NCBI GenBank assembly: GCA_012719445.1
Contig: JAAYAH010000051.1
Span: 1 to 64,000, forward strand
DNA from: Actinomycetales bacterium
Lineage (GTDB): Bacteria; Actinomycetota; Actinomycetes; Actinomycetales; Kineosporiaceae
Reading direction: 5' to 3'
DNA length: 64,000 nt
Shown: positions 61 to 22,221 of the stretch, piece by piece
Layout of the letters: the number at the start of each line of letters is the position of its first letter
How positions within the stretch are numbered: the first letter of the stretch is position 1
Position numbers and translations under genes: made by a program
Notes under the pieces: model-generated
Told to the model about the DNA's origin: nothing
The model's input: only the letters and a program-made list of their open reading frames with translations
Databases searched by the model: none

Positions 61-105
61 GTCGACACTGGCCGCGGGGCGGCCGTTCTCGATCGGGTCA
101 GCCAT
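1..105 (-). CDS. hypE: HypE N-terminal fragment (cut by window edge)
   Basis: Only the first 35 codons lie in the window. The ATG at 105..103 overlaps the hypD stop by 8 bases (ATGGCTGA), which argues for translational coupling. HypE makes the cyanide ligand of the [NiFe] centre by dehydrating a carbamoylated C-terminal cysteine; that catalytic part is outside the window, so the name rests on operon order (hypE follows hypD) and not on a conserved motif. The visible residues are a non-conserved extension: MADPIENG, a short Ala/Ser linker, then two perfect copies of the ten-residue unit [10 protein letters not shown]. HypE proteins normally begin close to their first conserved glycine-rich segment, so a repeat-bearing leader is unusual. 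Confidence 0.7.
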
Positions 106-1201
106 TGCTCGACACTCCCAGGGGCCGGTACCGGTAGTAGGCCGCGCACGCGCCCTCACTGCTGACCATGGTGGCCCCCAGCGGGGTGCGCGGGGTGCAC
201 GCCCTCCCGAACGCCTCGCACTCGTCGGGCTTGAGCAGTCCCTGGAGCACCTCGCCCGCCCGGCACTCCCGGGGCTCGACGGTACTGATCCGCCCGACGT
301 CGAAGCGGTGCTCGGCGTCGAAGGCCCGGTAGCGCTCCGACAACCGCCAGCCGGAGTCCGGGATGGTGCCGATGCCCCGCCAGGCCCGGTCGGTCACCTC
401 GAACACGTCGGAGATCATCGCCTTGGCTGTCGGGTTGCCCTCGGCGGGCACGGCCCGGGGATAGGCGTTGTCGACCTCGAACAGCCCCTGCTCCAACTGC
501 CGCACGGCGCGTCGGATGCCCTCCAGCAGGTCCAGCGGCTCGAAGCCGGTGACCACGATGGGAACCCGGTACTTCTTCGCCACCGCCGGGTACTCCCCGG
601 TGCCCATGACGCTGCACACGTGCCCGGCGGCGAGGAAGGCCTGCACCCGGCAGGTCGGCGAGGCCATGATCGCTTCGAGGGCCGGTGGCACCCGGACGTG
701 GGAGACGAGCATGCTGAAGTTGGGCACTCCCCTTCGGGCGGCCTGGTGCACCGCCATGGCGTTGGGAGGCGCGGTGGTCTCGAACCCGATCCCGAAGAAC
801 ACCACCTCACGGTCGGGGTTCTCCCCGGCCAGGGTGAGCGCGTCGAGCGGGGAGTAGACCACCCGGACGTCGCCGCCCTCGCTGCGCACGGCGAACAGGT
901 CCCTGTCGCTGCCGGGGACCCGCAGCATGTCGCCGAACGAGCAGAAGATCACTCCCGGGGTCGCTGCGATCTCCAGGGCCTTGTCGATCGTCTCCAGCGG
1001 GGTCACGCACACCGGGCAGCCCGGGCCGTGGATGAGCTCGATCTCCTTCGGCAGCACCTGGTCGATGCCGTGCCGGATCAGGGAGTGTGTCTGGCCGCCG
1101 CAGACCTCCATCAGGGCCCACGGCCTGGTGACCGAGGCCCGGATGTCGTCGAGCACCCGCAGGGCCAGGCGGGTGTCCCCGAACTCCTCGACCCACTTCA
1201 C
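98..1201 (-). CDS. hypD: Hydrogenase maturation factor HypD
   Basis: HypD (367 aa) is the Fe-S scaffold on which, with HypC, the Fe(CN)2CO unit of [NiFe]-hydrogenase is assembled in the cytoplasm. The family signatures are present: CGGQTH at residues 34-39 with the iron-binding Cys34, and GPGCPVC at 59-65. The C-terminal third carries the cysteines expected to bind the [4Fe-4S] cluster. The GTG start at 1201 overlaps the hypC stop (GTGA), and the protein opens with the family-like MKWVEEFGD. Length is normal for the family. It is the penultimate visible gene of the hydrogenase operon and should be co-translated with hypC and hypE. Confidence 0.97.
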
Positions 1202-1602
1202 GACGTCTCACCCGCCGGGTGCTGGACGGTGCCGGCCGCATCGGCGCCGGGTTCGCCGGTGCCGGGTTGCCCGATACCGGGCCGGTCGGCACCGGGCTGA
1301 TCGGCACCGGGCCGGTCGGCACCGGGCTGGTCGGGGTCGGCGGCGGCCTGGGCCCAGGCGTCGCCGAACTCCTCCTCCAGCATGCCCGTGCTCTCGAACA
1401 GGTCGAGGGTCGCCAGCGCCGAGGCCTCGTCGAGCTTCTGGATGGCGAAGCCGACGTGGACGATGACGTACTCGCCCACCTCGACCTCCGGCAGGTAGGC
1501 CAGGCAGACCTCCTTCACCACGCCGCCGAAGTCGACCTGCGCCATCCGCATCGGGCCGCCCTCAGTGATCTCGAGGACCTTCCCGGGAACCGCAAGACAC
1601 AT
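1198..1602 (-). CDS. hypC: Hydrogenase maturation chaperone HypC with repeat tail
   Basis: HypC carries the iron ligand complex between HypD and the large-subunit precursor. The start MCLAVPGKV gives the essential N-terminal Cys2, and the conserved His is His49. The family domain ends near residue 80. The remaining roughly 50 residues are an added tail built from degenerate five-residue units such as [10 protein letters not shown] and QPGTG, encoded by an approximate 15-bp repeat. Most HypC proteins are about 75-95 aa, so 134 aa is long. The gene begins 41 bases inside the 3' end of hypF and ends in a GTGA overlap with hypD. The tail may be a disordered linker; no function for it can be read from sequence. 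Confidence 0.95.
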
Positions 1603-4258
1603 GGCTGTCCCTCTCCGTCGTCGTCGCCGTGCCGTTCCTGTCGCTGCCGTGCCGTCTCCGTCGCCGTGCCGCGACGGCGAGCTGGCCGAGGGCGAGCCCT
1701 CCGTCGTTGGGCGGGACCTTGCGGTGCCGCAGCACGGTGAACCCCTCGCCCTCCAGCAGCGCGGTCGTGAGGTGCAGGAGCACCGCGTTGCAGAACACCC
1801 CGCCGGAGAGGGCGACGACGTCCGTTCCCGTCCCGTCCCGGACCCGCAGCGCGGCCCCGACGATCCCCGTCGCCAGGCCTGCGTGGAACCGGGCGGCCAC
1901 CACCGTTGGGTCGGTCCCGCCCAGGACGTCCGCGGTGACGGCCCTGATCAGGGTGGAGCAGTCGAGCATGCCGACCCCCTGCCCGTCGCGAAGCGGCAGC
2001 GGGTAGGGCTCGGCCCCGTCCACCAGGACCGCCGTCGCCTCGAGGGCCATGGCCGCCTGGGCCTCGAAGTCGGCCTCGTGGCAGATGCCCGCGAGGGAGG
2101 CCACCGCGTCGAACAGGCGCCCGGCGCTGGAGGTCGGCACACAGGCCAGGCCGGTGTCCAGCTGGCGGGCCAGCACCCGCCGCTCCGCAGCCGGGCAGGC
2201 GGCGACGCAGGGCAGCCGCGCGTACGCCGGTTCCGCCCACGCGACGCCTGCGGCGTGCAGGTGGGCCAGGGCCATTCGGTAGGGGCGGTGCACGGCGGCG
2301 TCGCCCCCCGGCAGCGGCACGGGGGAGAGGTGGGCGACCCTCTGGAAACCGTCGTAGTCGGCCAGCAGAACCTCCCCGCCCCACACCGTGCCGTCGGTGC
2401 CGTATCCGGTGCCGTCGAAGGCGACGCCGATCACCGGGGCCGACCCGTCCAGTCCGTGCTCGGCCATCACCGCGGCGACATGGGCGTGGTGGTGCTGCAC
2501 CCGGACCAGCGGCAGGGGCTCTCCGGACCCGGCGCTGGACCCGGCGACGGACTCGCCGTCCGCACCCGGACCGCCGGCACCACCCGCACCGCCCGCGCCG
2601 CCTGCGTCACGGGGGTCGCCCGCGCCATCGGGGTCACCAGCGCCACCGGGATCACCGGGGTCACCCGACCGGGCACGCCGCTGCGCCCAGCGGGCGGAGC
2701 GGTACCCCGGGTGCAGGTCGGCGACCAGCAGCCGCGGGGTGACGCCGACCAGGTCGGCCAGGTGGGTGGTGGCCCGCTCGAAGGCCTGTTGGGTCGCGAG
2801 ATCGTCCATGTCCCCGACGTGGGCGGACAGCCAGGCGCACCGTCCCTCCGCGACGGCGAAGGTGTTCTTCAGGTCCCCGCCGACAGCCAGCACCGGGGAG
2901 ACCTCGAACGGCAGGGCGACCGGCACCGGCGCGTACCCCCGGGAGCGCCGGACGGGCAGCTCCTGGCCGTCCACCACCCGGGTCACCGAGTCGTCGCAGG
3001 GGATGTGGATCGCCCGGTCGTGCCCCAGCCAGGCGTCGGCGATCCCCGCGAGCCGGGTCACCGCCTCGGCATCGTCGGTGACGATCGGCTCGCCGGACAG
3101 GTTGCCGCTGGTCAGCACCAGCACCGACGGCCCCGGTCGGTCCCCGTCGAGGCCGAGCAGCAGGGTGTGCAGGGCCGTCGGCGGCAGCATCACACCGAGG
3201 TCGGGGTTGCCCGGTGCCACCCCGGCCGCAACCCTCACCCCGGTGTCGCCCGGCGGTGCCGTGACCTCGGCGTGACGGCGCAGGAGCACGATGGGCCGGC
3301 GCGGGGAGACCAGCAGTGCCTCCTCCTCCGCGGAGACCCGGCAGACCGTCCTGGCCGTCGCGACGTCGGCGACCAGGACGGCGAACGGCTTGTCGCCCCG
3401 GCGCTTGCGTCGCCGCAGCCGGGCAACGGCCCGTTCCGCGGTGGCGTCGCAGGCCAGGTGGTAGCCGCCCAGCCCCTTGACCGCCACGATCCGGCCGGCT
3501 GCCAGCAGCTCACGGGCCTCGGCCAGGGCCGCGGCCCCGGTCGCGGTCACCACGGGGACGCCGGGGGCCCCGGCCTGGTCGTCGGTGGTCGGCGCACCGG
3601 GATCACCGTGCGGGGCGCCGGTGGGGCGGGTGCCGCTCCCGCGCCGGGTCACCAGGGAGAGGGTCGGCCCGCAGTCGTGGCAGGCGATCGGCTGGGCGTG
3701 GAACCGGCGGTCGGCCGGATCGCGGTACTCGCCGGCGCAGGCGGGGCACAGCGGGAAGTCCGCCATCGTCGTCGACGGTCGGTCGTACGGCAGGCCGGTG
3801 ACGATGGTGAACCGCGGGCCGCAGGCGGTGCAGGAGATGAAGGGATGGCGGTACCGCCGGTCGGCCGGGTCGGTGAGCTCGGCGTGGCAGTCGGGGCAGG
3901 TCGCGACGTCGGCCGGGACGAGGGTCCTGCCGGCACCGGCACGAGAGCTCTCGATGGTGAACCCCGTTGCGGCGGTGGCGGGAAGGTCGCGCCAGGTCAC
4001 GTCGGTGACGGCGGCCAGCGGCGGCGCGTCGGTACCGACCCGGGCGCAGAACGAGGCGACGTCGGCGGGGTCTCCCTGCACCTCGGCGAAGACACCGTCG
4101 CTGGTGTTCCACACCCGTCCGGCCAGGGACAGCTCGCTGGCCAGAGCGTAGACGAAGGGACGGAACCCGACCCCCTGGACGATGCCGCGGACGGTGACCT
4201 CCCGCCGTACGGCGTGCCCGCCGCCGGGCCGGGTGACGGTCACGTCGGGGACGGTCAC
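1562..4258 (-). CDS. hypF: Carbamoyltransferase HypF
   Basis: HypF (898 aa) carbamoylates HypE using carbamoyl phosphate and ATP, the first step of cyanide ligand synthesis. In order it shows an acylphosphatase domain (about 17-105, motif GIVQGVGFRPF), two CxxC zinc-finger pairs (about 120-190, CPDCH and CPACA with partner CTACG and CHDCG), a YrdC-like domain (about 230-430) and a Kae1-like domain (about 455-880, motifs VQHHHAH and LSGGVF). A Gly/Asp/Ala-rich stretch of about 45 residues near 526-572 separates YrdC and Kae1 regions and a shorter Pro/Gly insert sits near 206-235; both look like flexible linkers added to a normal core. The GTG start overlaps the hypB stop (GTGA). Confidence 0.96.
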   Translation of the reverse strand: MTVPDVTVTRPGGGHAVRREVTVRGIVQGVGFRPFVYALASELSLAGRVWNTSDGVFAEVQGDPADVASFCARVGTDAPPLAAVTDVTWRDLPATAATGFTIESSRAGAGRTLVPADVATCPDCHAELTDPADRRYRHPFISCTACGPRFTIVTGLPYDRPSTTMADFPLCPACAGEYRDPADRRFHAQPIACHDCGPTLSLVTRRGSGTRPTGAPHGDPGAPTTDDQAGAPGVPVVTATGAAALAEARELLAAGRIVAVKGLGGYHLACDATAERAVARLRRRKRRGDKPFAVLVADVATARTVCRVSAEEEALLVSPRRPIVLLRRHAEVTAPPGDTGVRVAAGVAPGNPDLGVMLPPTALHTLLLGLDGDRPGPSVLVLTSGNLSGEPIVTDDAEAVTRLAGIADAWLGHDRAIHIPCDDSVTRVVDGQELPVRRSRGYAPVPVALPFEVSPVLAVGGDLKNTFAVAEGRCAWLSAHVGDMDDLATQQAFERATTHLADLVGVTPRLLVADLHPGYRSARWAQRRARSGDPGDPGGAGDPDGAGDPRDAGGAGGAGGAGGPGADGESVAGSSAGSGEPLPLVRVQHHHAHVAAVMAEHGLDGSAPVIGVAFDGTGYGTDGTVWGGEVLLADYDGFQRVAHLSPVPLPGGDAAVHRPYRMALAHLHAAGVAWAEPAYARLPCVAACPAAERRVLARQLDTGLACVPTSSAGRLFDAVASLAGICHEADFEAQAAMALEATAVLVDGAEPYPLPLRDGQGVGMLDCSTLIRAVTADVLGGTDPTVVAARFHAGLATGIVGAALRVRDGTGTDVVALSGGVFCNAVLLHLTTALLEGEGFTVLRHRKVPPNDGGLALGQLAVAARRRRRHGSDRNGTATTTERDSHVSCGSREGPRDH

Positions 4259-4932
4259 GGCACGGCACCGCCGAGGACCTCGTCGGCCGTCCGCCGCAGC
4301 CGGGCGAGCAGGGCGTCGACGCCCTCACCCGTCCTGGCCGAGGTGCGCAGCACCTCCACGTCGCCCCTGACGTCACGCACCGCGGCGAGGAACGCCTGCT
4401 CGTCGAAGGCACACGCCTCGGCAAGATCGATCTTGGTGAGCACGACGACGTCGGCCCAGCGGTAGGCGGTCGGGTACTTCACCGGTTTGTCCTCGCCCTC
4501 GGTCACCGACGCGAGGACGACGCGCAGGCTCTCCCCGAGGTCGTAGGAGGCGGGACAGACCAGGTTGCCGACGTTCTCCACCAGCAGCAGCCGGGTGCCG
4601 GAGGGCAGCCACCCGGACAGGTGGTCGCGGACCAGGTCGGCCTCCAGGTGGCACAGCCCGTCGGTCACCACCTGCCGCACCGGCGCGCCGGAGCGTTGGA
4701 GTCGCCGGGCGTCGTTCTCCGTCGCGAGGTCGCCGGTCAGCGCCGCGACCGGGAGCCCCTGCCCGACGGCGGTCGTCATCAGCCGCTCCAGCAGCGCGGT
4801 CTTGCCCGACCCCGGGCTGGACAGCAGGTTGACCGCGACGGTCCCGGCGGCGAGCAGGTCGGCACGGAGGGCTGAGGCGAGGTCGTCGTTGTGCGCCAGG
4901 ACCGCCGTCCGCAACTCGATCAGCCTGCTCAC
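4255..4932 (-). CDS. hypB: Hydrogenase nickel insertion GTPase HypB
   Basis: HypB (225 aa) is the SIMIBI GTPase that, with HypA, delivers nickel to the hydrogenase large subunit. Visible motifs are the P-loop SSPGSGKT at 38-45, a DLATENDA switch segment, VENVGNLVCPA with the metal-binding Cys, and TKIDL for guanine recognition. The N-terminal CxxCGC high-affinity nickel site and the His-rich stretch found in some homologues are absent. The GTG at 4932 is chosen because it overlaps the hypA stop as GTGA and is followed by the family-like SRLIELRTAVLA; upstream in-frame sequence is arginine-rich non-protein-like translation. Confidence 0.95.
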   Translation of the reverse strand: MSRLIELRTAVLAHNDDLASALRADLLAAGTVAVNLLSSPGSGKTALLERLMTTAVGQGLPVAALTGDLATENDARRLQRSGAPVRQVVTDGLCHLEADLVRDHLSGWLPSGTRLLLVENVGNLVCPASYDLGESLRVVLASVTEGEDKPVKYPTAYRWADVVVLTKIDLAEACAFDEQAFLAAVRDVRGDVEVLRTSARTGEGVDALLARLRRTADEVLGGAVP

Positions 4933-5336
4933 GTCGTCCGCCCTCCGTCCGGGGCGCCGGTGCCAGGCACCGCGCCGTCCATCTCGTCCGTGCCGTCGGG
5001 GTCCTCGACCTCGACCGTCGCGATCTCCATCTCCCTGCCGGACGCGTTCGGCAGCACCCTGCCCCCGCACCCGGGGCAGCGCAGCGGGGGCAGGGAGGTC
5101 CACACCCCCGAGGTCCCGCAGTCGACGCACGTCCCCGGCAGCGGGACCCGGTCCACGACCAGCCGCGAGCCTTCCAGCGGGGTCTGCGCGGTCACCAGCT
5201 CCCAGCAGAAGTGCAGGGATTCCGGGACGACCCCGGTGAGCATGCCCAGCCGCACCGTCACCTCGTACACCCGCAGCTCGCCGACGTGGTCGGTGACCGT
5301 GGTGACCAGGGCCTGGGCGATGGACAGCTCGTGCAC
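4929..5336 (-). CDS. hypA: Nickel metallochaperone HypA
   Basis: HypA (135 aa) binds nickel through its N terminus and hands it on with HypB. The start V(M)HELSIAQ supplies His2 and Glu3 for the nickel site. The zinc site is made of CVDC (70-73) and CPGC (87-90). The final 25 residues are an acidic, glycine-rich extension past the usual family end. The GTG start lies one base after the stop of the protease gene, and the 3' end overlaps hypB, so translation is coupled on both sides. Confidence 0.95.
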   Translation of the reverse strand: MHELSIAQALVTTVTDHVGELRVYEVTVRLGMLTGVVPESLHFCWELVTAQTPLEGSRLVVDRVPLPGTCVDCGTSGVWTSLPPLRCPGCGGRVLPNASGREMEIATVEVEDPDGTDEMDGAVPGTGAPDGGRTT

Positions 5337-5337
5337 C

Positions 5338-6018
5338 TCACGCCCCCGCTTCCCGGCCGCCCGCGGCCGTGTCCCGCCCGCCGCCACCGAGGCCGAGCAC
5401 CCCTTGGGGGTAGGGCAACGCCTCCGGCGGGTCCGCGCGCACCGTGACGGGGACCCCCCACGAGCTGAGCTCCGCCGCGGCCGCGTCGGCGAGGGGCCCG
5501 ACGGCGCCCGCCACCGGGGCGGACAGCCCGATGCCCTGCTCCACCTGCTGCGGTTCGATCCCGAGCACCACCAGGTGGGCCGGACGGCGGCCCCGCAGCT
5601 CCGCCGCAGCCAGCACCTCGGTGAACCCGAGTTCGTGGACCGACATCCGGGAGCTGAAGGCCGCCCGCAGGCGCTCGCCCTCCAGCCGGACCAACGCCCC
5701 GGGCTCACGTCCGGTGCGCACGGTGTCCAGGACCAGCACGTGCCGCGTGTCCTCCAGCAGCCCGAGCAGGTGCAGCCCGAGGACGCCGCCGTCCAGCACG
5801 CTCACCTCGGGCGGCACGACGTAGCGACGGACCAGTTCGGCCACCGCCGCAACCCCCGCCCCGTCGTCGCCCACCAGCACGTTGCCCAGCCCGAGCACGG
5901 CGACGCCGCCGGCGACCGGCTCCGTCGCGACGTCCTCGGCACTCACCTGTCCACGGTAACCAGCGGGGTCGGGCGGCCTGGACCCGCCGTCGGCCGACGG
6001 GATCGGGGTGCTCGGCAT
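5338..6018 (-). CDS. hupD: Hydrogenase maturation endopeptidase (HycI/HyaD family)
   Basis: This protease (226 aa) trims the C-terminal peptide of the large subunit after nickel insertion. The core motif GLGNVLVGDDG provides the first acidic nickel ligand; LDGGVLGLHLL and SVHELGFTEVL provide the other expected Asp and His positions. The ATG at 6018 is chosen because AGGAG lies six bases upstream; an ATG at 6153 in the same frame has no ribosome binding site and adds a Pro/Ser-rich stretch unlike the family. Even so the protein has an N-terminal non-conserved segment of about 35 residues. Its substrate is presumably the adjacent hupL product, which ends in the expected DPCxxCxxH cleavage motif. 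Confidence 0.93.
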   Translation of the reverse strand: MPSTPIPSADGGSRPPDPAGYRGQVSAEDVATEPVAGGVAVLGLGNVLVGDDGAGVAAVAELVRRYVVPPEVSVLDGGVLGLHLLGLLEDTRHVLVLDTVRTGREPGALVRLEGERLRAAFSSRMSVHELGFTEVLAAAELRGRRPAHLVVLGIEPQQVEQGIGLSAPVAGAVGPLADAAAAELSSWGVPVTVRADPPEALPYPQGVLGLGGGGRDTAAGGREAGA

Positions 6019-6318
6019 GGCCTCTCCTGGGCGGTGGCCGGACGGGTGCCCGTCGTGCCGGCCCGGCGGACGGGACGGTCCCGTGGGGTCCGGTCCGACG
6101 GCGGACGTCGGGACGGTGGGGGTTGCGGACGAGGTCGGGGGGTCACAGGCCATCGTGCCGTCGGGACGGTCCCCGGTGCAGCCCTGCGGCGGGACGACCG
6201 GGTTTCTTCAGCATTCCTTGACCGGGGCTTGACCTCCGCCGGCAGCCGGGACAGGCCCGGCCCGGGCGGGTCCGGTCCGGGACCAGGGCAGGGACCCGGG
6301 CCGGACCCGTCGCCGGGG
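6019..6318. other. 300-bp spacer between hupL and protease gene
   Basis: Apart from the hairpin at 6268-6308 and the protease ribosome binding site, no gene or regulatory motif was recognised. In-frame translation of the part upstream of the chosen protease start is Pro/Ser/Gly-rich and not family-like. Confidence 0.5.
6268..6308 (-). terminator. Hairpin after hupL
   Basis: Arms 6268-6281 and 6295-6308 pair over 14 positions (13 Watson-Crick and one G-U) around a 13-nt loop, ten bases beyond the hupL stop and inside a 300-bp space before the protease gene. There is no T-run, so it may be an attenuator or a 3'-end stabiliser separating abundant structural-gene mRNA from accessory-gene mRNA. 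Confidence 0.5.
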
Positions 6319-8004
6319 TCACGGCACGACGGTGATCTCGGTGGACGCACCGCTCTCCGCGTCGACGACGTGCACGGCACAGGCCATGCACGGGTCGAAG
6401 GAGTGGACGACCCGCAGCACCTCGAGCGGACGTGAGGCGTCGGCGACCGGCGTCCCCACCAGCGCGTGCTCCCAGGCCCCGCGCCGCCCCGCGCCGTCCC
6501 GGGGGGAGCCGTTCCAGGTGGACGGGATGACGATCTGGTAGCGGCTGATGGTCCCGTTCTCGATGGAGACCCAGTGCCCGAGGGCGCCGCGCGGTGCCTC
6601 GGTCAGGCCGAACCCGGTCGCGGTCGCCGGCCAGCTCGCCGGCAGCCATTTCGCGTTGTCGGTGACGGCGAGGTCTCCTGCGGCCATGTTCCCGGCGAGC
6701 TCGTCGAGCCAGCCGCCGAGCTGCTCGGCGAGCCACTGGGTCTCCAGCGCCCTGGTGACCATCCGGCCGACGGTGGAGAACAGGCCGGAGGCGGGGATGC
6801 GCAGGCTCCGCAGGGCACCGTCGACGAGCTGGCGGGCCCTCGGGACCCGGGCGGCGTAGGCGACGGCCATCCGGGCCAACGGGCCGACCTCCATCACCGC
6901 GTTGCCGTAGCGGGGGGCCTTGCTCCAGCTGTACCTGGCGGCGGTGTCGAGAGCGTCGTACGGCGGCGTCGGACCGGTGTACACCGGCTCGGTGACCCCG
7001 ACGGAGGGGTGCAGCGGGTCGCCCTGGGCGTACCAGGACCGGGTCACGTCCTCGGTGATCCTGCGCTGGTCGAGGGCCTCCAGGCGGTTGAGGCTGCGGC
7101 CGCGCAGGACCCCGGAGGGCATGAGCGGTCTGCCGTCCCGGCCCGGGAAGTCCCCGTAGCACAGCAGGTTTCCGGGGCCGCGGCCGACGGAGGTCCACGG
7201 CCGGTACTCCCTGCCCAGGTGGAGCAGGTCGGGAACGTACACCTGCTCGACGAAGGTCCTGATCTGCTTCGCCAGCACCCGGAGCATGGCGACCGAGGTG
7301 TCGTTGAGGGCGTTCGCGCCGGCCGGGTCGAGGGCGGTCGCCATGCCCCCGACCAGGTAGGTCTGCGGGTGCGGGTTCTTGCCGCCGAGAATCGCGTGGA
7401 TCTTGACGAACTCGCGCTGCCAGTCCAGGGCCTCGAGGTAGTGCGCCATCAGCACGAGGTTGGACTCCGGGGACAAGGTGTAGGCGGGATGCCCCCAGTA
7501 GGCGTTGGCGAACAGGCCGAGCTGGCCGGAGTCGACGAACGCCTGGAGCTTGGCCTTCACCGTCGCGAAGTACTCGGGGGAGTTGTTGGTCCACCCCGAG
7601 AGGGACCGCTGCAGCCTGCTCGCCGCGGCCGGGTCGGCCGTCAGGGCGGAGGTGAGGTCGATCCAGTCCGGTCCGTGCAGGTGATACAGGTGCACGACGT
7701 GGTCGTGGACGTACTGGGTCGCCTCCATCAGGTTGCGGATGATCCGGGCGTTGTCCGGGATCGTGATGCCGAGGGCGTTCTCCACCGCGCGCACCGAGGC
7801 CAGCGCGCTGACCGTGGTGCAGACCCCGCAGATCCGCTGGGTGAACACCCAGGCGTCCCGCGGGTCGCGGCCGGCGAGGACGGTCTCGATGCCGCGGAAC
7901 ATGGGGCTGGAGCTCCAGGCGTCGGTGACCCTTCCCGAGCTGATCTCGGCTTCGATGCGCAGGTGTCCTTCGATCCTGGTGATCGGGTCGACAACGATCT
8001 TCAT
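6319..8004 (-). CDS. hupL: [NiFe]-hydrogenase large subunit (group 1-like)
   Basis: This subunit (561 aa) holds the Ni-Fe active site that splits H2. The proximal ligand pair is Cys59/Cys62 in RICGVC and the distal pair is Cys539/Cys542 in DPCMACAVH. Cleavage after His545 would release a 16-residue peptide starting VVDAESG, the substrate of the neighbouring protease. Position 66, four residues after Cys62, is Ser where group 1 proteins usually have His (or Thr). It pairs with the Tat-exported small subunit encoded 80 bp upstream and should be co-exported with it. The sequence is close in pattern to group 1 uptake enzymes; the exact subgroup cannot be assigned by eye. Confidence 0.96.
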   Translation of the reverse strand: MKIVVDPITRIEGHLRIEAEISSGRVTDAWSSSPMFRGIETVLAGRDPRDAWVFTQRICGVCTTVSALASVRAVENALGITIPDNARIIRNLMEATQYVHDHVVHLYHLHGPDWIDLTSALTADPAAASRLQRSLSGWTNNSPEYFATVKAKLQAFVDSGQLGLFANAYWGHPAYTLSPESNLVLMAHYLEALDWQREFVKIHAILGGKNPHPQTYLVGGMATALDPAGANALNDTSVAMLRVLAKQIRTFVEQVYVPDLLHLGREYRPWTSVGRGPGNLLCYGDFPGRDGRPLMPSGVLRGRSLNRLEALDQRRITEDVTRSWYAQGDPLHPSVGVTEPVYTGPTPPYDALDTAARYSWSKAPRYGNAVMEVGPLARMAVAYAARVPRARQLVDGALRSLRIPASGLFSTVGRMVTRALETQWLAEQLGGWLDELAGNMAAGDLAVTDNAKWLPASWPATATGFGLTEAPRGALGHWVSIENGTISRYQIVIPSTWNGSPRDGAGRRGAWEHALVGTPVADASRPLEVLRVVHSFDPCMACAVHVVDAESGASTEITVVP

Positions 8005-8084: not shown

Positions 8085-9233
8085 TCAGGACCCGGTGCTG
8101 GTCACGGTCGGCGGGACGGTCGTCGTCGTAGCCGTCGTGGTCGCTGCCGTCGCCGCAGTCGTGGTGGTCGCGGCGGTGGTGGTCGCGGCCGTGGTGGTCG
8201 TGGCGTCGTCTGCCGAGGTGGTGGTCGGCTGGTCACCGGATGGCGAGGTGCTGGTCGCGCTCGTCGTCGTCCGTTGGCGGTAGACGTAGAACGGGCTGTT
8301 GACGTCCCAGAACCTCGGTGAGGTGCAGCCGATGCAGGGGGCACCCGCGCCGATCGGCCAGGTCGTCTCGTTCCAGTTGCGCTGGTAGCAGTTGGCGTAG
8401 GTCGAGGGGCCTCGGCAGCCCATGTGCACCAGGCACCAGCCGTTGCGGTGGCCCTCGTCGCCCCAGGCCTCGACGGTCTGCCCGGCCTGGAGGAACGGGT
8501 ACCGTTCGCAGCGTCCGGAGCCGTGGATCCGCTGCTCGTAGGCGAACAGCGGCCGCCCGGCGGCGTCGAGGGGCGGCAGTTCCCTGAAGGTGAGGTAGTA
8601 CACCAGCGCTGCGGTGATGTTCACGCCGTTGGCGGGGCAACCCGGCAGGTTCACCAGGTTGGTGATCCCGGGCACGGCTCCGGCGACCCCCGTCGCGCCG
8701 GTGGGGTTGGGGCGGGCCGCCGCGATGCCGCCGTCCGTCGCGCAACTCCCGACGGCCATGGTGAACAGGGCCTTGGCGGTGACCTCCTGGACGATGCTCA
8801 CCGCCGTGCGCCCGCCGATCGTGCAGTGGACGCCGCCGTCGGCGAGAGGGATGGATCCCTCGACCACGCAGACGAAGTCCTGGCCGGAGGCGAGGACGTC
8901 GTCGAGGGAGGACTCCGCCCGTGCGCCGGCCGCGGCCATGAGGGTCTCGTGGTAGTCGAGCGAGATGACGTCGAACAGCAGCGAGCCGACCCCGGGGTCG
9001 ACGCTGCGGAGGAAGGACTCGGTGTCCGCCGTGCAGTCCTGGGTCGCCAGCCAGACCACGGGCAGGCGCGGGGCCGAGGCGACGGCGTGCGCGATCCGGG
9101 GGGTCATGGCCTCCGGCAGGGCGAGAGCCGCGGTCACGGCGCTGCAGAACCCGAGGAAGGCACGCCGGGAGACCCCGTGGGGCAACGGCAGGTCGACGGT
9201 TCTGGAGTTCTCGGCAGGGGGGATGGTCGGCAT
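8085..9233 (-). CDS. hupS: [NiFe]-hydrogenase small subunit, Tat signal and Thr-rich tail
   Basis: This subunit (382 aa) carries the Fe-S relay. The Tat motif SRRAFLG at 22-28 is followed by a hydrophobic segment, so the enzyme should be folded with hupL and exported. Cluster ligands are visible: Cys67, then Cys in GSCAT and PGCPAN, a His plus Cys in IHGSGRCER, and CLVHMGC and PCIGC. The proximal-cluster motif reads QDCTADTES, so residue 70 is Asp where most group 1 enzymes have a second Cys. In place of the usual C-terminal membrane helix, residues 322-382 are a tail with 30 Thr out of 61. The ATG is preceded by AGGAGGT. No cytochrome b partner gene is in the window. Confidence 0.95.
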   Translation of the reverse strand: MPTIPPAENSRTVDLPLPHGVSRRAFLGFCSAVTAALALPEAMTPRIAHAVASAPRLPVVWLATQDCTADTESFLRSVDPGVGSLLFDVISLDYHETLMAAAGARAESSLDDVLASGQDFVCVVEGSIPLADGGVHCTIGGRTAVSIVQEVTAKALFTMAVGSCATDGGIAAARPNPTGATGVAGAVPGITNLVNLPGCPANGVNITAALVYYLTFRELPPLDAAGRPLFAYEQRIHGSGRCERYPFLQAGQTVEAWGDEGHRNGWCLVHMGCRGPSTYANCYQRNWNETTWPIGAGAPCIGCTSPRFWDVNSPFYVYRQRTTTSATSTSPSGDQPTTTSADDATTTTAATTTAATTTTAATAATTTATTTTVPPTVTSTGS

Positions 9234-10001: not shown

Positions 10002-10978
10002 AAATCGACGCGCGGTCGGCCTCCGCGAGGCCCGGGGGCTCCGGCCCCACGGGTCCGGCCGCGCGTGACGCGCGACCCGAGGTCTCGGCGTCAGGGGCCG
10101 CGGCGGCGACGAGCGGTCCGGCTGCCCAGGCCGGGTGCGGCTCGGCCGGATCTCCCGGGATCGACCTCGGGGTCGGGCCGGAGGGGTGCTCGGAGAGCGA
10201 GCGGCGGACCAGGGACCGGGTGCGCCGGATGATCCTCGAGCGGGGGCCCATCACCGCCAGCGAGCTGGGCAGGGGGCTCGGCCTCACCGCCGCCGCGGTG
10301 CGCCGTCATCTCGACGGGCTGCTCGCCGGTGGCGACGTCGCCATCTGGGACGCTCCTTCCCACGACCGGGGCAGGGGGCGGCCGGCGCGACGGTTCGTGC
10401 TCACCGACGCCGGGCACGCGGAGATGGCCACCGCCTACGACGACCTGGCCGCCTCGGCGCTGCGCTTCCTCGGCTCCGTCGCCGGGACGGCGGCCATCCG
10501 CCGGTTCGCGGACGCCCGGATCGCCGACCTGGAGGCCCGGTACCGGCCCAGCGTCGACGCCGCGGGCGTCGACCCCCGCGAGCGGGTGGAGGCGCTCGCC
10601 GGTGCCCTGTCCCGCGACGGCTACGCCGCCAGCACCCGGCCGCTCCGGGCCGGGAGGCTGTCCCTCGGCACCCAGCTGTGCCAGGGGCACTGCCCGGTCC
10701 AGCACGTCGCGGCGGAGTTCCCGGCCCTGTGCGAGGCCGAGACCGAGGCGTTCAGCCGCCTGCTCGGCGTCCACGTGCAGCGGCTGGCGACCCTGGCCCA
10801 CGGCCAGCACGTGTGCACCACCCACGTCCCGCCCGGCGCCGCCATGACGGCCCCGGATGCCGGGACCCCCGATCCCGTCGCGGCCGGACCCCCCGGCGCG
10901 TCCCAGGACCCCACTGCGACCCCCGGCAGAGCCGCTGGAACCGCACCGTCCCCCTCCCAGGAGAGGACCGCTCGATGA
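9998..10978 (+). CDS. sufR: Fe-S sensing repressor SufR
   Basis: SufR is an ArsR/DeoR-like winged-helix repressor that binds a [4Fe-4S] cluster and represses suf when clusters are sufficient. The HTH runs from about residue 70 to 120 ([20 protein letters not shown] and on). The cluster-binding cysteines are Cys228, Cys232 and Cys245 in [19 protein letters not shown]. The GTG at 9998 is chosen because it lies six bases after a -10-like hexamer; it gives 326 aa with an N-terminal Gly/Ala-rich stretch of about 60 residues, so a start further in is possible. The Pro/Ala-rich C-terminal tail is also variable. The stop overlaps the sufB ATG (ATGA). Confidence 0.9.
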
Positions 10979-12387
10979 CCACGATCGCCCGCCCCGAGCT
11001 CGAAGGGCTCGGGAGGTACGAGTACGGCTGGGCCGACTCCGACGTCGCGGGAGCCTCCGCCCGTCGTGGACTGTCGGAACAGGTCGTCCGCGACATCTCG
11101 GCGATGAAGCACGAGCCGGAGTGGATGCTCCGGATGCGGCTCAAGGGCCTCCGCCTGTTCGATCGCAAGCCGATGCCGACCTGGGGCAGCGACCTCACCG
11201 GAATCGACTTCGACTCGATCAAGTACTTCGTCCGCTCCACGGAGAAGCAGGCGTCGTCGTGGGAGGAACTGCCGGAGGACATCCGCAGGACCTACGACCG
11301 GCTCGGCATCCCCGAGGCGGAGAAGCAGCGGCTGGTCGCCGGGGTCGCGGCCCAGTACGAGTCGGAGGTCGTGTACCACCAGATCCGCGAGGACCTGGAG
11401 AAGCAGGGAGTGATCTTCCTCGACACCGACACCGGCCTGCGCGAGCACCCGGAGCTCTTCCGGGAGTACTTCGCAAGCGTCATCCCGGTGGGCGACAACA
11501 AGTTCGCCGCGCTGAACACCGCCGTGTGGTCCGGTGGGTCGTTCATCTACGTGCCGCCGGGCGTGCACGTCGACATCCCGCTGCAGGCGTACTTCCGCAT
11601 CAACACCGAGAACATGGGGCAGTTCGAGCGGACCCTGATCATCGCGGACGAGGGCTCGTACGTGCACTACGTCGAGGGCTGCACCGCGCCGATCTACTCC
11701 TCGGACTCGCTGCACTCCGCCGTCGTCGAGATCATCGTGAAGAAGGACGCCCGGGTCCGGTACACGACCATCCAGAACTGGTCCAACAACGTCTACAACC
11801 TGGTCACCAAGCGGGCCGTCGCGCACGCCGGGGCGACCATGGAGTGGATCGACGGCAACATCGGCTCCAAGATCACCATGAAGTACCCCGCGGTGTTCCT
11901 CCTGGGCGAGCACGCCAAGGGCGAGACCCTGTCCATCGCCTTCTCCGGCGAGGGGCAGCATCAGGACGCCGGGGCGAAGATGGTCCACGCGGCCCCGCAC
12001 ACCTCCTCCACCATCGTGTCGAAGTCGGTCGCCCGCGGCGGCGGCCGCACCTCCTACCGCGGGCTGGTCCAGGTCCAGGAGGGGGCGCACCACTCCGCCT
12101 CGACGGTGCGCTGCGACGCCCTGCTCGTCGACACGATCAGCCGGTCGGACACCTACCCGTACGTGGATGTGCGCGAGGACGACGTGGCCATGGGGCACGA
12201 GGCGACGGTGTCCAAGGTCAGCGAGGACCAGCTGTTCTACCTGATGTCGAGAGGGCTGAGCGAGGAGGAGGCGATGGCCATGATCGTCCGTGGCTTCGTC
12301 GAGCCCATCGCCAGGGAGCTTCCGATGGAGTACGCCCTCGAACTCAACCGCCTCATCGAGCTGCAGATGGAAGGGGCCGTCGGCTGA
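10975..12387 (+). CDS. sufB: Fe-S scaffold subunit SufB
   Basis: SufB (470 aa) is the scaffold of the SufBCD complex, on which clusters are assembled from SufU-delivered sulfur. Family segments such as [29 protein letters not shown] and [15 protein letters not shown] are intact, and VRCDALLVD near the C terminus retains the conserved Cys. Length is normal. AGGAG lies upstream of the ATG, which overlaps the sufR stop. The 3' end overlaps sufD as TGATG. Confidence 0.97.
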
Positions 12388-13622
12388 TGACCGCCACGAC
12401 GGATCTGGTCGAGGAGTCCGGAGCCACCGGACCCGGTCGGCACGGGCTCACCGAGCACTCCCACGGCGCCGGGGCACCTCCCCCGAAGTCGCGGGCCGAG
12501 CGCCCGATGAGCTTCGACCTCGCCGACTTCCCGAGACCGCAGGGACGCGAGGAGGAATGGCGGTTCACCCCGATCGCGGCGATGGCGGACCTGCTCGACG
12601 GCGAGGCCTCGACGGCGCACCTCACGTGGACGTCCGAGGCCCCGGACTGCGTCGAGGTCGCCGCCCTCGCCGCGGGGAGCCCGCTGCTCCGTTCGGTGCC
12701 GACCCCTGTCGACCGGCCGGCGGCCCTGGCCCTGGCCAACAGCGACGGGGCGGTGCACGTCCGGGTCCCGGCCCGGCGCTCCTGCGAACGTCCCGCGGTG
12801 CTCCGCCTGGTCGGGGAGCCGGTGCCGGGGGCGGACGGTGCGCCGCCCCGGGCGTGGGGTCACGTCGTCGTCGAGCTCGGTGACGAGGCCGAGGCGACCG
12901 TGGTGCTGGAGCACTCCGGGCTCGCCCACTACGCCGCGGCGGTCTCGGTGCTGGTCGGCGACCGGGCCCGGCTGACCCTGGTCAGCGTCCAGGACTGGGC
13001 GGACGGCGCGGTGCACAGCGCCCATGTCGGGGTGCGGATGGGCAGGGACGCGCGGTTGCGCTCCACCCAGGTCAGCCTCGGCGGCGACCTGGTCCGGATC
13101 GTGGAGACGGTGGAGTTCACGGCGCCGGGCGGGGACGCCGACCTGGCCGGGATCTACTTCGCCGACGAGGGACAGCACCTCGAACACCGGCTGCTGGTGG
13201 ACCACACCGTGCCGCACTGCCGCAGCAACGTCGTCTACAAGGGCGCCCTCCAGGGGGAGCAGGCGCACACCGTCTGGGTGGGCGACGTGCTCATCCGGGC
13301 TGCGGCCGAGGGAACCGACACCTACGAGCTCAACCGCAACCTCGTGCTCACCGACGGGGCCCGCGCCGACTCGGTGCCCAACCTGGAGATCGAGACCGGG
13401 GAGATCATCGGTGCGGGGCATGCCAGCGCGACCGGCCGGTTCGACGACGAGCAGCTCTTCTACCTGCGCGCCCGGGGCATCCCGGAGCAGGAGGCCAGGC
13501 GGCTCGTCGTGCGCGGCTTCTTCGCCGAGCTCGTCCAGCGGATCGGCGTCGACGAGATCGAGGAACGGCTCATCACCGCGATCGAGGCCGAGCTGGAGCG
13601 CTCCATCGGGAGCGCCGGGTGA
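12387..13622 (+). CDS. sufD: Fe-S assembly subunit SufD
   Basis: SufD (411 aa) pairs with SufB to form the core that SufC docks on. The right-handed beta-helix region is recognisable (VVVELGDEAEATVVLEHSG, YKGALQGEQAHTVWVGDVLI, ELNRNLVLTDGARADSVPNL), and the C-terminal helical part matches the SufB end (DDEQLFYLRARGIPEQEAR). The ATG shares its A with the sufB stop. The first 40 residues are a variable Gly/His-containing leader. Confidence 0.96.
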   Translation: MTATTDLVEESGATGPGRHGLTEHSHGAGAPPPKSRAERPMSFDLADFPRPQGREEEWRFTPIAAMADLLDGEASTAHLTWTSEAPDCVEVAALAAGSPLLRSVPTPVDRPAALALANSDGAVHVRVPARRSCERPAVLRLVGEPVPGADGAPPRAWGHVVVELGDEAEATVVLEHSGLAHYAAAVSVLVGDRARLTLVSVQDWADGAVHSAHVGVRMGRDARLRSTQVSLGGDLVRIVETVEFTAPGGDADLAGIYFADEGQHLEHRLLVDHTVPHCRSNVVYKGALQGEQAHTVWVGDVLIRAAAEGTDTYELNRNLVLTDGARADSVPNLEIETGEIIGAGHASATGRFDDEQLFYLRARGIPEQEARRLVVRGFFAELVQRIGVDEIEERLITAIEAELERSIGSAG

Positions 13623-13999
13623 GCGCCGTCCGGGTCTGCGCGCTGGACGACCTCGACGAGGTCGGCGCGCTGCGGGTGGTCGTCGCCGGTGAGCCGATCG
13701 CCGTCGTCCGCGACGAGGAGGGCCACCTGCACGCGATCGACGACACCTGCACCCACGCCCAGGTGTCGCTGTCCGAGGGTGAGGTCGAGGGCTGCACCAT
13801 CGAGTGCTGGGTGCACGGGTCGCGGTTCGACCTGCGCACCGGGCAGCCGCTGTCCCTCCCCGCGACCCGGCCCGTCGCCGTCTACGCGGTGACCGTCGAA
13901 GGGGACGACGTCCTCGTCGACGTCACCCACCCGATCAACCAGAGCCCCACCAGTGCGAGCAACGGCGCCGACAAGGCAGCCGTCGTGAAGGAGAGCTGA
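13619..13999 (+). CDS. Rieske-type ferredoxin of the suf operon
   Basis: This 126-aa protein carries the Rieske [2Fe-2S] motif CTH (44-46) and CWVH (63-66), as in biphenyl-dioxygenase-type ferredoxins. In actinobacterial suf operons a gene of this type sits between sufD and sufC; an electron-supply role in cluster assembly is likely but inferred from position. The last 20 residues are a variable polar tail. The GTG overlaps the sufD stop (GTGA). Confidence 0.93.
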   Translation: MSAVRVCALDDLDEVGALRVVVAGEPIAVVRDEEGHLHAIDDTCTHAQVSLSEGEVEGCTIECWVHGSRFDLRTGQPLSLPATRPVAVYAVTVEGDDVLVDVTHPINQSPTSASNGADKAAVVKES

Positions 14000-14006
14000 G
14001 CCCGTC

Positions 14007-14816
14007 ATGGCCACCCTCGAGATCCGTGACCTGCACGTCACCGTGGACACCGAGCAGGGGAGCAAGGAGATCCTCCGCGGCGTCGACCTCACCGTGCGGC
14101 AGGGCGAGACCCACGCGATCATGGGCCCGAACGGGTCCGGCAAGTCGACCCTCGCCTACTCGCTGGCCGGGCACCCCAAGTACACGGTGACCGGCGGCAC
14201 CGTGACCCTCGACGGCGAGGACGTGCTCGCCATGAGCGTCGACGAGCGGGCCCGAGCCGGCATGTTCCTCGCCATGCAGTATCCGGTCGAGGTCCCGGGC
14301 GTCACCGTGTCCAACTTCCTCCGCACCGCCAAGACCGCCATCGACGGCACCGCGCCGAACCTGCGGACCTGGATCCGGGACATGCGCTCGGCCATGCAGG
14401 CGCTGCGGATCGACCCGGCCTTCGCCGAGCGGAACGTCAACGAGGGCTTCTCCGGCGGGGAGAAGAAGCGGCACGAGATCCTGCAGATGGAGCTGCTCGG
14501 CCCGAAGCTCGCCATCCTCGACGAGACCGACTCCGGGCTCGACGTCGACGCCCTCAAGGTGGTCTCCGAGGGGGTCAACCGGGTGCGCGCGACCGGTCAG
14601 GTGGGCGTCCTGCTGATCACCCACTACACCCGGATCCTGCGCTACATCCGCCCCGACTTCGTGCACGTCTTCGTCGACGGCCGGATCGTGGAGGAGGGCG
14701 GCCCCGAGCTCGCCGACCGGCTGGAGGACGAGGGCTACGACCGCTTCACCGGCGGTGCCTCGACCAGCACCGCGATGCCCGCGACCGCGGTCTCGGCGAC
14801 CCGCGCGGGGGCCTGA
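14007..14816 (+). CDS. sufC: Fe-S assembly ATPase SufC
   Basis: SufC (269 aa) is the ABC-type ATPase that drives conformational change of SufBD. Walker A is GPNGSGKST at 40-48, the signature is GFSGGEKKRHEI and Walker B is LAILDETDSGLD, the form typical of SufC. The ATG follows AAGGAGAG. The last 20 residues are an Ala/Thr-rich extension. Confidence 0.97.
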   Translation: MATLEIRDLHVTVDTEQGSKEILRGVDLTVRQGETHAIMGPNGSGKSTLAYSLAGHPKYTVTGGTVTLDGEDVLAMSVDERARAGMFLAMQYPVEVPGVTVSNFLRTAKTAIDGTAPNLRTWIRDMRSAMQALRIDPAFAERNVNEGFSGGEKKRHEILQMELLGPKLAILDETDSGLDVDALKVVSEGVNRVRATGQVGVLLITHYTRILRYIRPDFVHVFVDGRIVEEGGPELADRLEDEGYDRFTGGASTSTAMPATAVSATRAGA

Positions 14817-16127
<1,311 letters not shown>

Positions 16128-16160
16128 GATGTGCCGGACCGGCAGGGGGGAACGGTGCCG

Positions 16161-16709
16161 ATGAACGGCCTCGACCAGCTGTACCAGCAGGTGATCCTCG
16201 ACCACGCCCGGGAGCGTCACGGCCACGGCCTGCGCGGGTCGGAGACCGCGGCCGGCACGGCCGAGAGCCACCAGTACAACCCGCTGTGCGGGGACGAGGT
16301 CACCCTGCGGGTCGCCGTCGGGACGACGGCGGCGGCCGGGCAGCCGATCGGGGGCGAGGCCACGGGCGAGAGCGTGGTCAGCGACGTGTCCTGGACCGGC
16401 GACGGGTGCTCGATCAGCCAGGCGTCGACATCGGTGCTGCACGACCTCGTGGTCGGCAGGACGGTCGCGGAGGCAGGGGACCTGGTGGCCGAGTTCCGGG
16501 CCATGATCCGGGCCCGGGGTTCCGTCGAACCGGACGAGGACGTCCTCGGCGACGCCGTCGCCTTCGTCGGCGTCGGTCGGCATGCGAACCGGGTGAAGTG
16601 CGCCATGCTCGGGTGGACGGCCTTCGAGGACGCCCTCGCCAGGGCGGGGGGAGCGTCCGGACCGGACGGCGGAACGGACGACGGGGCAACGGAGGAGGCA
16701 GGCCGGTGA
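16161..16709 (+). CDS. sufU: Zinc-dependent sulfurtransferase SufU
   Basis: SufU accepts sulfur from SufS. The zinc ligands are Cys43 and Asp45 in NPLCGDEV, Cys83 in GDGCSIS and Cys147 in RVKCAMLGW. The ATG at 16161 is chosen because AGGGGGG lies about ten bases upstream and MNGLDQLYQQVILDH is the usual family start; a GTG at 16131 would add ten unconserved residues. This gives 182 aa. The C-terminal acidic, Gly-rich tail is variable. Confidence 0.95.
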   Translation: MNGLDQLYQQVILDHARERHGHGLRGSETAAGTAESHQYNPLCGDEVTLRVAVGTTAAAGQPIGGEATGESVVSDVSWTGDGCSISQASTSVLHDLVVGRTVAEAGDLVAEFRAMIRARGSVEPDEDVLGDAVAFVGVGRHANRVKCAMLGWTAFEDALARAGGASGPDGGTDDGATEEAGR

Positions 16710-17035
16710 GCCAGACGGAACACGCACCGACGTCGGTCGCCGACGTCGAGGAGGCGTTGCGCGACGTCGTCGACCCCGAGTTGGGCATCAACGTCGTCGA
16801 CCTCGGACTGGTCTACGGTGTGACCATCGACCAGCACAACACCGCCGTCATCGACATGACCCTCACCTCGGCGGCATGCCCGCTCACCGATGTGATCGAG
16901 AGCCAGGCGGTGCAGGCGCTGGAGGGGCTCGTCGACAACGTCCTGATCAACTGGGTGTGGATGCCGCCGTGGGGTCTGGAGAAGATCACCGAGGACGGGC
17001 GCGAGCAGCTCCGCGCGCTGGGGTTCAACGTCTGA
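16706..17035 (+). CDS. sufT: SufT / MIP18-family Fe-S maturation protein
   Basis: This 109-aa DUF59 protein matches the MIP18/PaaD-like family whose suf-linked members assist Fe-S maturation. Diagnostic stretches are DVVDPELGINVVDLGLVYG and TSAACPLTD with the conserved Cys. The GTG overlaps the sufU stop (GTGA). It closes the suf operon; a hairpin follows before the next gene. Confidence 0.93.
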   Translation: MSQTEHAPTSVADVEEALRDVVDPELGINVVDLGLVYGVTIDQHNTAVIDMTLTSAACPLTDVIESQAVQALEGLVDNVLINWVWMPPWGLEKITEDGREQLRALGFNV

Positions 17036-20394: not shown

Positions 20395-20646
20395 CCTCCC
20401 GCCCGGCGCGACGGTACGGCGTGCCCTGGGCGACCAGTCGGAGACAGCGGGCCGGGCGCGCGCGTCGCGCGGGATCGCCGTCGGGGTGGCGACAGCCGTC
20501 CGCAAAATACGGAAATGTCACTCGAAATGCCGCAGGGAGATCGAAGAAATCGGTCGGCGGCCCTTTTCTTATGGCATCAGCAATGGAACCATGCCGTATC
20601 CCGAATTCAGGATCGTGATTGAACCGTGATTGAGGGGGCGCGGTTC
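20395..20646. other. AT-richer leader upstream of amidase gene
   Basis: This 252-bp gap has an AT-rich core at about 20505-20625 in otherwise GC-rich DNA. It probably contains the amidase promoter. I compared it by eye with the c-di-AMP riboswitch often found before cell-wall hydrolases and saw no match. Confidence 0.4.
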
Positions 20647-22221
20647 GTGTGCCTGCGGGCACAGAGAGGACGTGCGGTGACGGGACGGCGGCAGGGTCGG
20701 TGTGGATCGGCGAGGCGGAGAGGACGGTGGGCACTGCCGGTGGCTGTGGCCTGCGGGGTCGCGACGGCAGCCGGGACGGGACTCGCCGAGGCCGACGCCG
20801 CATCGACAGCCCCGGCCGCGGGGGAGGCGGGATCCGCGGGCTCGCCGGTGCCCGTGGTGCGATCCCTCGCCCTCCGCGATCCCACCCAGCCCCTCGTCGC
20901 CGCGACCGGCTGGGCGAGTGACAGGTCCGCCGCCGTCGCCCCGCGGGACACCAGACCCTTCAGCATGCTCGGCGTCACCTGGTCGGACCCGGAGGCGGCG
21001 ATCATGGTCGGAGCCGTCCGGGTCCGGGCTCGCTCCCTGGCCACGGGCCGATGGAGCGGCTGGCTGGAGGTCGAGACCGGTGACGAGGACCTCGCCACCG
21101 CCGAGTCGGGTGCCCGCGGCGGTACCTCACCCCTCTGGGTCGGCCCGTCCGACGGGGTGGAGGTCCAGGTGGACGGGGGGAGGAGCACTCTCCCGGCCGG
21201 GTTGCGGCTGGAGCTCGTCGACCCGGGCCGCGGGGAGCAGCCCCGGGCGACGACCTCCGTGGCATCCACCGCGACGACGAAGGCCGCCTCCGGGACGTCG
21301 GCCACGACCACGGCCGCCTCGACGGTGAAGGCTCCCACCCTGGTGTCGCGGTCGGGGTGGAAGGCCGACGAGAGCATCCGGGGAGCCGGCAACCCCTCCT
21401 ACGGGACCGCCGTCAAGGTGGTGTTCCTCCACCACACCGCGGGGACCAACTCCTACGCGTGCAGCGAGTCGGCCGCGATCGTGCGCGGTGTGTACAGCTA
21501 CCACGTCACCGGTCGCGGCTGGCGGGACATCGGCTACAACTTCCTCGTCGACAAGTGCGGCAAGATCTTCGAGGGTCGTCAGGGCGGAACCACCCGGCCC
21601 GTCGTCGGTGCCCACACCCTGGGGTTCAACAGGAACAGCGCCGGGATCGCCGTCCTCGGCACCTACAGCTCCAAGAAGGTCTCGACGGCGACCAGAGCGG
21701 CGATAGCCCACCTCGCGCTGTGGCGGCTGCGGGCATACGGCGGCAGTCCCACCGGGAAGGCCTCGCTGACCGCGAGCTCCTCGGTGGGCTCGAAGTTCGT
21801 CAAGGGGCGTTCCTACACCTTCACCCGGCTGTCCGCGCACCGGAACGCCGGGTACACGGAGTGTCCGGGAGACGCGCTGTACGGGCAGTTGTCGGGGATC
21901 AGGACCCTGGCGACGAAGGTCAGCTCGCTCGCCGTGAAGAGCATCACCGGCGCCAGGCTGAGCGGCGGGGTCTACACCGCGGGCGGCGCGATCACCGTCT
22001 CCTGGACCGTGGGCACCCCCACCCGTCTGATCACCCGGTTCCAGGTGCTCGTCGACGGGAAGGTCGTCACCACGAAGGGGCCGTCCACCAGGTCCGCGAA
22101 GATCACGTTGCGGGCCGGCAGGCACAAGGTCGCGGTCCGGGCGACCCATCTCTCCGGGGCGACGGCGACCACGGCGGCCAAGACCGTGGTCAGGAAGGTT
22201 TCGGTCAGGAAGGCGACGTAG
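20647..22221 (+). CDS. Secreted N-acetylmuramoyl-L-alanine amidase (PGRP/amidase_2 type)
   Basis: The 524-aa precursor has a twin-basic N terminus and signal segment (RWALPVAVACGVATAAG, cut near EADA), an N-terminal beta-rich domain, a Thr/Ala-rich linker (about 205-235) and a zinc amidase domain. Zinc and catalytic residues are visible in FLHHTAG, the Tyr of YNFLVDKCG, SAHRNAGYTECPGD. The C-terminal 90 residues are an Ig-like domain (ITVSWTVGTPTRLITRFQVLVDGK). It should cleave the peptide stem from glycan in the wall. The GTG at 20647 is chosen because AGGGGG lies nine bases upstream; a GTG at 20626 is possible. Confidence 0.9.
   Translation: MCLRAQRGRAVTGRRQGRCGSARRRGRWALPVAVACGVATAAGTGLAEADAASTAPAAGEAGSAGSPVPVVRSLALRDPTQPLVAATGWASDRSAAVAPRDTRPFSMLGVTWSDPEAAIMVGAVRVRARSLATGRWSGWLEVETGDEDLATAESGARGGTSPLWVGPSDGVEVQVDGGRSTLPAGLRLELVDPGRGEQPRATTSVASTATTKAASGTSATTTAASTVKAPTLVSRSGWKADESIRGAGNPSYGTAVKVVFLHHTAGTNSYACSESAAIVRGVYSYHVTGRGWRDIGYNFLVDKCGKIFEGRQGGTTRPVVGAHTLGFNRNSAGIAVLGTYSSKKVSTATRAAIAHLALWRLRAYGGSPTGKASLTASSSVGSKFVKGRSYTFTRLSAHRNAGYTECPGDALYGQLSGIRTLATKVSSLAVKSITGARLSGGVYTAGGAITVSWTVGTPTRLITRFQVLVDGKVVTTKGPSTRSAKITLRAGRHKVAVRATHLSGATATTAAKTVVRKVSVRKAT

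Follow-up and report, generated by a model that had tools for sequence, protein, structure and literature searches.

A Tat-exported [NiFe]-hydrogenase with a threonine-rich tail and no C-terminal membrane helix in an actinobacterial genome

To which group does an exported [NiFe]-hydrogenase belong, and what keeps it in place, if its small subunit ends in a run of threonines and not in a membrane helix? The question is raised by hupS in the window, i.e. the whole 64,000-nucleotide stretch of actinobacterial DNA analysed here. A preliminary description of the gene had seen in the tail a possible O-mannosylated or wall-spanning substitute for a cytochrome b anchor, had compared an Asp at the proximal cluster with group 1h enzymes, and had suggested a separate lineage of exported uptake enzyme. 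Our analysis makes it fairly probable that HupSL is a soluble, exported uptake hydrogenase derived from group 1f (a label that rests on the clade company of Frankia and Geobacter, not on the HydDB classifier) with a disordered, variable and possibly O-mannosylated tail.

The hup-hyp operon

HupS matches solved group 1 small subunits in both Foldseek and phmmer searches. Its gene belongs to an operon hupSLD-hypABFCD, all on the same strand and complete as far as the contig edge. Base 1 of the window is the contig start, so any downstream hypE would fall off the contig. The features are as follows; the start of hupD is an estimate from the domain boundary, and those of hypA and hypB are also estimated.

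98..1201, minus strand: hypD (TIGR00075, 474 bits)
1198..1602, minus strand: hypC (TIGR00074 across residues 1-73 of 134)
1562..4258, minus strand: hypF (TIGR00143, 722 bits)
4255..4932, minus strand: hypB (TIGR00073, 224 bits)
4929..5336, minus strand: hypA (PF01155 and TIGR00100 from residue 125 of the ORF 4929-5708)
5338..5904, minus strand: hupD, maturation endopeptidase (TIGR00140/TIGR00072 from residue 84 of the ORF 5338-6153)
6319..8004, minus strand: hupL, catalytic large subunit, 561 aa (PF00374, 698 bits)
7807..7809, minus strand: HupL Ser66 at the L1 histidine position, RICGVCTTVS against the usual RICGVCTxxH (alignment; column of HoxG H82)
8085..9233, minus strand: hupS, exported [NiFe]-hydrogenase small subunit, 382 aa, ATG start (TIGR00391, 350 bits; PF01058; PF14720)
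8088..8270, minus strand: Thr-rich C-terminal tail of HupS, residues 322-382, ending PTVTSTGS (sequence read)
8508..8525, minus strand: distal-cluster H237-x4-C242 of HupS, two residues longer than the usual HxxC (alignment with relatives)
9024..9035, minus strand: proximal-cluster motif C67-T68-A69-D70 of HupS (sequence read)
9147..9176, minus strand: Tat signal core GVSRRAFLGF, HupS residues 20-29 (TIGR01409 above cut-off)

The Tat motif reported in the preliminary description is borne out by the profile search (TAT_signal_seq of NCBIfam, 21.2 bits against a cut-off of 16.7), and its arginines R23 and R24 are unchanged across 27 aligned relatives. In HupL the L2 motif reads SFDPCMACAVH, and the C-terminus is extended for cleavage by a protease. 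All cluster ligands and NiFe cysteines are present and conserved, in HupS C282, C300 and C303 with Pro293 at the medial cluster and H237, C242, C267 and C273 at the distal one. A redox partner was recognised neither in this operon nor beside the second hupSL copy of the genome.

Several neighbouring genes have features of their own. Past its domain, residues 74-134 of HypC form a C-terminal tail of PGAD-type repeats, and HypF carries a Gly/Asp/Pro-rich insertion. Immediately upstream of hupS and divergent from it, at 10135-17035, the translations read by eye show an apparent SUF iron-sulphur assembly cluster and a Rieske-type protein.

Relatives, the proximal Asp and the missing anchor

Genome contigs were scanned with HupS as the sole query, and trees were built from HupL alone, HupS alone and both concatenated; all agree on the window branch. 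In the concatenated tree the window enzyme and copy 2 (the second hupSL of the window genome, G000, on contig C240, 72% identical in the core) are sisters (99/92), and the enzyme of the same-family genome G005, whose hup contig matches identically the public MAG contig JAUPKQ010000177.1, joins them at 100/100. A truncated hupL of the same-family genome G001 groups with the branch in the HupL tree. The branch is defined by these three full members from two genomes, both fragmented (283 and about 270 contigs), and the one truncated hupL; all its known inner members come from one family, in the same class as Frankia, whereas the same-family genomes G004 and G009 carry a Frankia-type, helix-bearing enzyme instead. 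The next sisters (99/95) are the enzymes of an Anaerolineae MAG (L020) and a Thermodesulfobacteriota MAG (L021), and the whole clade of 27, with Frankia and Geobacter, stands at 100/97. The suggestion of a separate lineage thus holds for a small, distinct branch of exported enzymes, but that branch is nested with the group 1f-type enzymes of Frankia and Geobacter.

The Asp at position 70, where CTGC is usual, was read correctly (CTAD). Its comparison with group 1h, however, is not supported: Asp or Asn at this position is a group 1f trait (PMC5364354, PMC4070099), found in 26 of the 27 clade members (Asp 19, Asn 7, Cys 1). The substitution is old and common to the clade, not special to the window enzyme. 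It was also already known, having been described in 2016 as Asn/Asp at the proximal position in group 1f enzymes of Roseiflexus, Geobacter and Frankia (PMC5364354) and tabulated in 2014 as Cys-to-Asp for G. metalloreducens (PMC4070099); the Alteromonas enzyme retains measurable activity with C81D (PMC4070099). The observation was right and the lineage is distinct, but the Asp itself is no novelty.

A hydrophobic segment ends the small subunit in all 22 other members of the clade (peak 1.23-2.11) and is missing from all five of window, copy 2, G005, L020 and L021. The hydrogenase cytochrome b (PF01292) was not found in the window genome, which is 99.3% complete; next to the anchored enzyme of G004, the cytochrome b gene lies directly downstream of hupL. 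The branch suggests that Tat-exported 1f-type enzymes can dispense with both anchor and cytochrome b. L020 and L021 resemble the window enzyme in their Tat signal, in CTGD/CTAD and in being helix-less; they differ in lacking a tail, in having HxxC, in keeping the L1 His, and in an in-frame TGA at the second L1 cysteine.

This TGA was seen in hupL of MAGs of three phyla, exactly at the second L1 cysteine (RICGV-U-TTVH; L020:7237-7239, L021:4164-4166 and L058:9428-9430), which by motif position is a bridging NiFe ligand. About 20-37 bases 3' of it, L020 and L021 have a hairpin; that of L058 differs somewhat. The TGA reads as a candidate selenocysteine at a NiFe ligand outside the customary L2 site. 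The usual NiFeSe position is the first L2 cysteine, and there a TGA (FDPU) was seen in many large subunits from more distant genomes of the same phylum, among them L127, L131, L132 and L142.

The threonine-rich tail

The composition of the tail is as first described, with 30 Thr among the 61 residues 322-382, besides 12 Ala and 7 Ser, and it has no membrane helix (best 19-residue hydropathy 0.38). AlphaFold2 gives pLDDT values below 50 over residues 319-382 and of 30-39 in the tail. Its reading frame continues that of the core, with Thr encoded by ACC/ACG in both. The DNA beneath is an imperfect, triplet-type tandem repeat, which makes length change by slippage likely. The tail was rejected as a conserved domain, given that the Pfam search of HupS returned nothing beyond the hydrogenase domains, that it is disordered and that it is missing from copy 2.

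The repetitive DNA might be held to favour an ordinary, anchored group 1f enzyme that owes its odd C-terminus to a frameshift or misassembly. A membrane helix is encoded in the tail region neither in the coding frame nor in either of the other two, G005 is tailed at the same site, copy 2, G005, L020 and L021 lack the helix too, and the genome yielded no cytochrome b to match. We therefore reject a frameshift origin of the tail, which the preliminary description had named as a possible refutation, and regard a corrupted anchor as next to impossible.

That the tail replaces the anchor, as had been proposed, is not borne out by the relatives with neither helix nor tail: copy 2 ends with ...NTPFYVRKPGN, and L020 and L021 end a few residues past the core. 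The search for homologous tails had one success. G005, the only close orthologue outside the window genome, carries at the corresponding site a tail rich in Ser, Thr and Pro, but the two tails have no sequence in common, and within the helix-less clade these are the only Ser/Thr-rich ones. As the helix is missing in the whole helix-less clade and tails occur in two enzymes only, the helix was most likely lost before tails appeared. The tail varies between lineages and is probably a trait of minor importance.

A working tether, in which a mannosylated or otherwise modified Thr-rich stalk binds the wall in place of the helix, is unlikely in our judgement. The means for it may exist, since the window genome encodes a Pmt in which both the PMT and the PMT_4TMC domain were recognised, and Tat substrates are among the proteins that Pmt of actinobacteria can modify (PMC11727336). 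From this gene and the suitable substrate sequence of the tail, the O-mannosylation proposed earlier is plausible. The tailed G005 orthologue from another genus also speaks for a tether, as does the fact that Thr/Pro-rich ORFs next to apbE, one in G005 and one in G001, end in PTVTST[GA]S as well. Against it, copy 2, L020 and L021 are equally unanchored yet tail-less, the window and G005 tails are unlike, and no LPXTG-type sorting motif is visible. Also, low-complexity extensions occur on the cytoplasmic HypC and inside HypF, so no extracytoplasmic role is needed to account for one. Together with the amidase-domain protein at 20626-22221, which has a Thr-rich linker, these proteins show that such stretches are common in the genome, which weakens the case for any special role of the tail.

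The shared end PTVTST[GA]S was found in the HupS tail (window 8085-8111), in L100:9884-12816 (G005) and in L198:2-1412 (G001). A degenerate DNA pattern with Ser fifth, applied to five family genomes, gave these three PTVTST[GA]S matches and one in a stop-filled frame. As a general sorting signal the motif was rejected, most other in-frame matches being the C-termini of a recurring domain that resembles, by eye, a family 2 cellulose-binding domain and ends PTV[TS]CTAS.

The gene order in G005 is ORF-apbE-hupS-hupL. This invites the idea of a tail that carries covalent FMN from ApbE and passes electrons outward. In G005 apbE immediately precedes hupS and itself follows the exported Thr/Pro-rich ORF whose end is PTVTSTAS; in G001 apbE comes after a PTVTSTGS end; and the window genome, in which no FMN_bind domain was found, has an apbE as well. 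The published flavinylation motif DxxSGA[ST] (PMC12052999), however, occurs neither in HupS nor in either Thr/Pro-rich ORF, and the apbE of the window genome does not adjoin hup and is no closer to the G005 apbE than to others. Flavinylation of the tail by ApbE was rejected on the missing motif, and a flavin relay is very improbable.

The active site and comparison with known hydrogenases

Two features of the branch had gone unremarked in the preliminary description. Ser66 replaces the L1 His in HupL of the window, copy 2 and G005, i.e. in all three readable branch members, while His stands in this column (His82 in HoxG) in all other group 1 large subunits read, from more than 100 loci; the G001 hupL is truncated before L1 and lies outside this count. 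The distal H-x4-C likewise occurs only in HupS of window, copy 2 and G005, with HxxC in the other relatives read. The L1 histidine forms part of the signature published for group 1, with a proposed role in proton transfer at the active site; as HoxG His82 and DvMF His88 it has been described as a 'histidine pathway' (PMC11228991). A natural branch with Ser at this site, the rest of the exported enzyme being intact, offers a direct test of the role of the histidine, and this change is the part of our finding most worth an experiment.

Ser66 could lower or bias activity, which leaves uptake function less than certain. A slow, biased or sensor-like enzyme without respiratory uptake would fit the loss of a proton-pathway residue (PMC11228991), and other classes do depart from the L1 His, with Gln in the regulatory HoxC and Tyr in the group 3-type enzyme of the window genome (L107, G000:C212; L1 = RICGICPVAY). 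Tat export, the hupD gene and the cleavable HupL C-terminus are nevertheless what one expects of an exported catalytic enzyme. The other active-site motifs examined are all intact, and no gene beside hupS was recognisable as a sensor kinase. We hold a sensor-like role to be distinctly unlikely.

For the soluble uptake enzyme that we favour, we infer the following course. HupS and HupL would form a soluble [NiFe] heterodimer, matured by the Hyp proteins and HupD, which Tat would export folded on the HupS signal. Once exported, the enzyme would remain outside the cytoplasmic membrane, which in a usual single-membrane envelope would mean the wall zone; it has no membrane helix, and no cytochrome b of its own was found. 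Its branch would have arisen from within the group 1f-type radiation. H2 would be split at the NiFe site. The electrons would first enter the proximal cluster, with three Cys and Asp70 as ligands, and then pass by way of the medial [3Fe-4S] and distal clusters to an acceptor apparently encoded outside the operon. The tail, presumably gained after anchor loss, would be a disordered and lineage-variable extension, possibly O-mannosylated, that catalysis does not need. A bolder reading would set these actinobacterial enzymes apart as a subgroup of their own, soluble and placed in the wall zone, which has dropped the L1 'histidine' proton route, reshaped its distal cluster and gives its electrons to an extracytoplasmic partner, near which the modified tail helps to hold it; we give this little credence.

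Among known systems, group 1 exported enzymes in general share with the window enzyme the Tat signal on the small subunit, the L1 and L2 NiFe cysteine pairs and the cleavable large-subunit C-terminus. Group 1f (Frankia, Geobacter) shares in addition the proximal Asp/Asn (PMC5364354), falls in the same clade in the HupS and concatenated trees and is a near neighbour in the HupL tree; its ligand set (medial three Cys and Pro, distal three Cys and one His) is present, with a His-Cys spacing of x4 and not x2. The window enzyme differs from group 1f clade members in having no C-terminal helix, no hydrogenase cytochrome b that we could find, L1 Ser for His, the distal H-x4-C and a variable Ser/Thr-rich tail. 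The soluble periplasmic enzymes of Desulfovibrio (1h2a, 1yq9) are likewise exported heterodimers, presumably working in the same way, whose small subunit ends soon past the medial-cluster domain, but they have CTGC and HxxC, and Desulfovibrio-type sequences lie elsewhere in the tree. Group 1h (C. necator HofKG, 5aa5) also ends its proximal motif in Asp (CDGD in HofK). It is, however, defined by the L1 signature TSRICGICGDNH and the absence of a Tat signal (PMC5364354), whereas the window enzyme has a different L1 and a Tat signal; HofK is only a distant match to HupS (E 3.7e-17), and the L1 of HofG, RICGICGDNH, is unlike that of HupL. The O2-tolerant group 1d enzymes with a six-Cys proximal [4Fe-3S] cluster have extra Cys at HoxK positions 19 and 120, where the window enzyme has Ala69 and Gly (SCATDGG). 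Finally, the plasmid hydrogenase of Bradyrhizobium BTAi1 (L170, pBBta01) also has a helix-less HupS with no cytochrome b annotated beside it; unlike the window enzyme it has CTGC and the L1 His and groups with Methylovirgula and 1d types, and it apparently represents a separate loss of the anchor.
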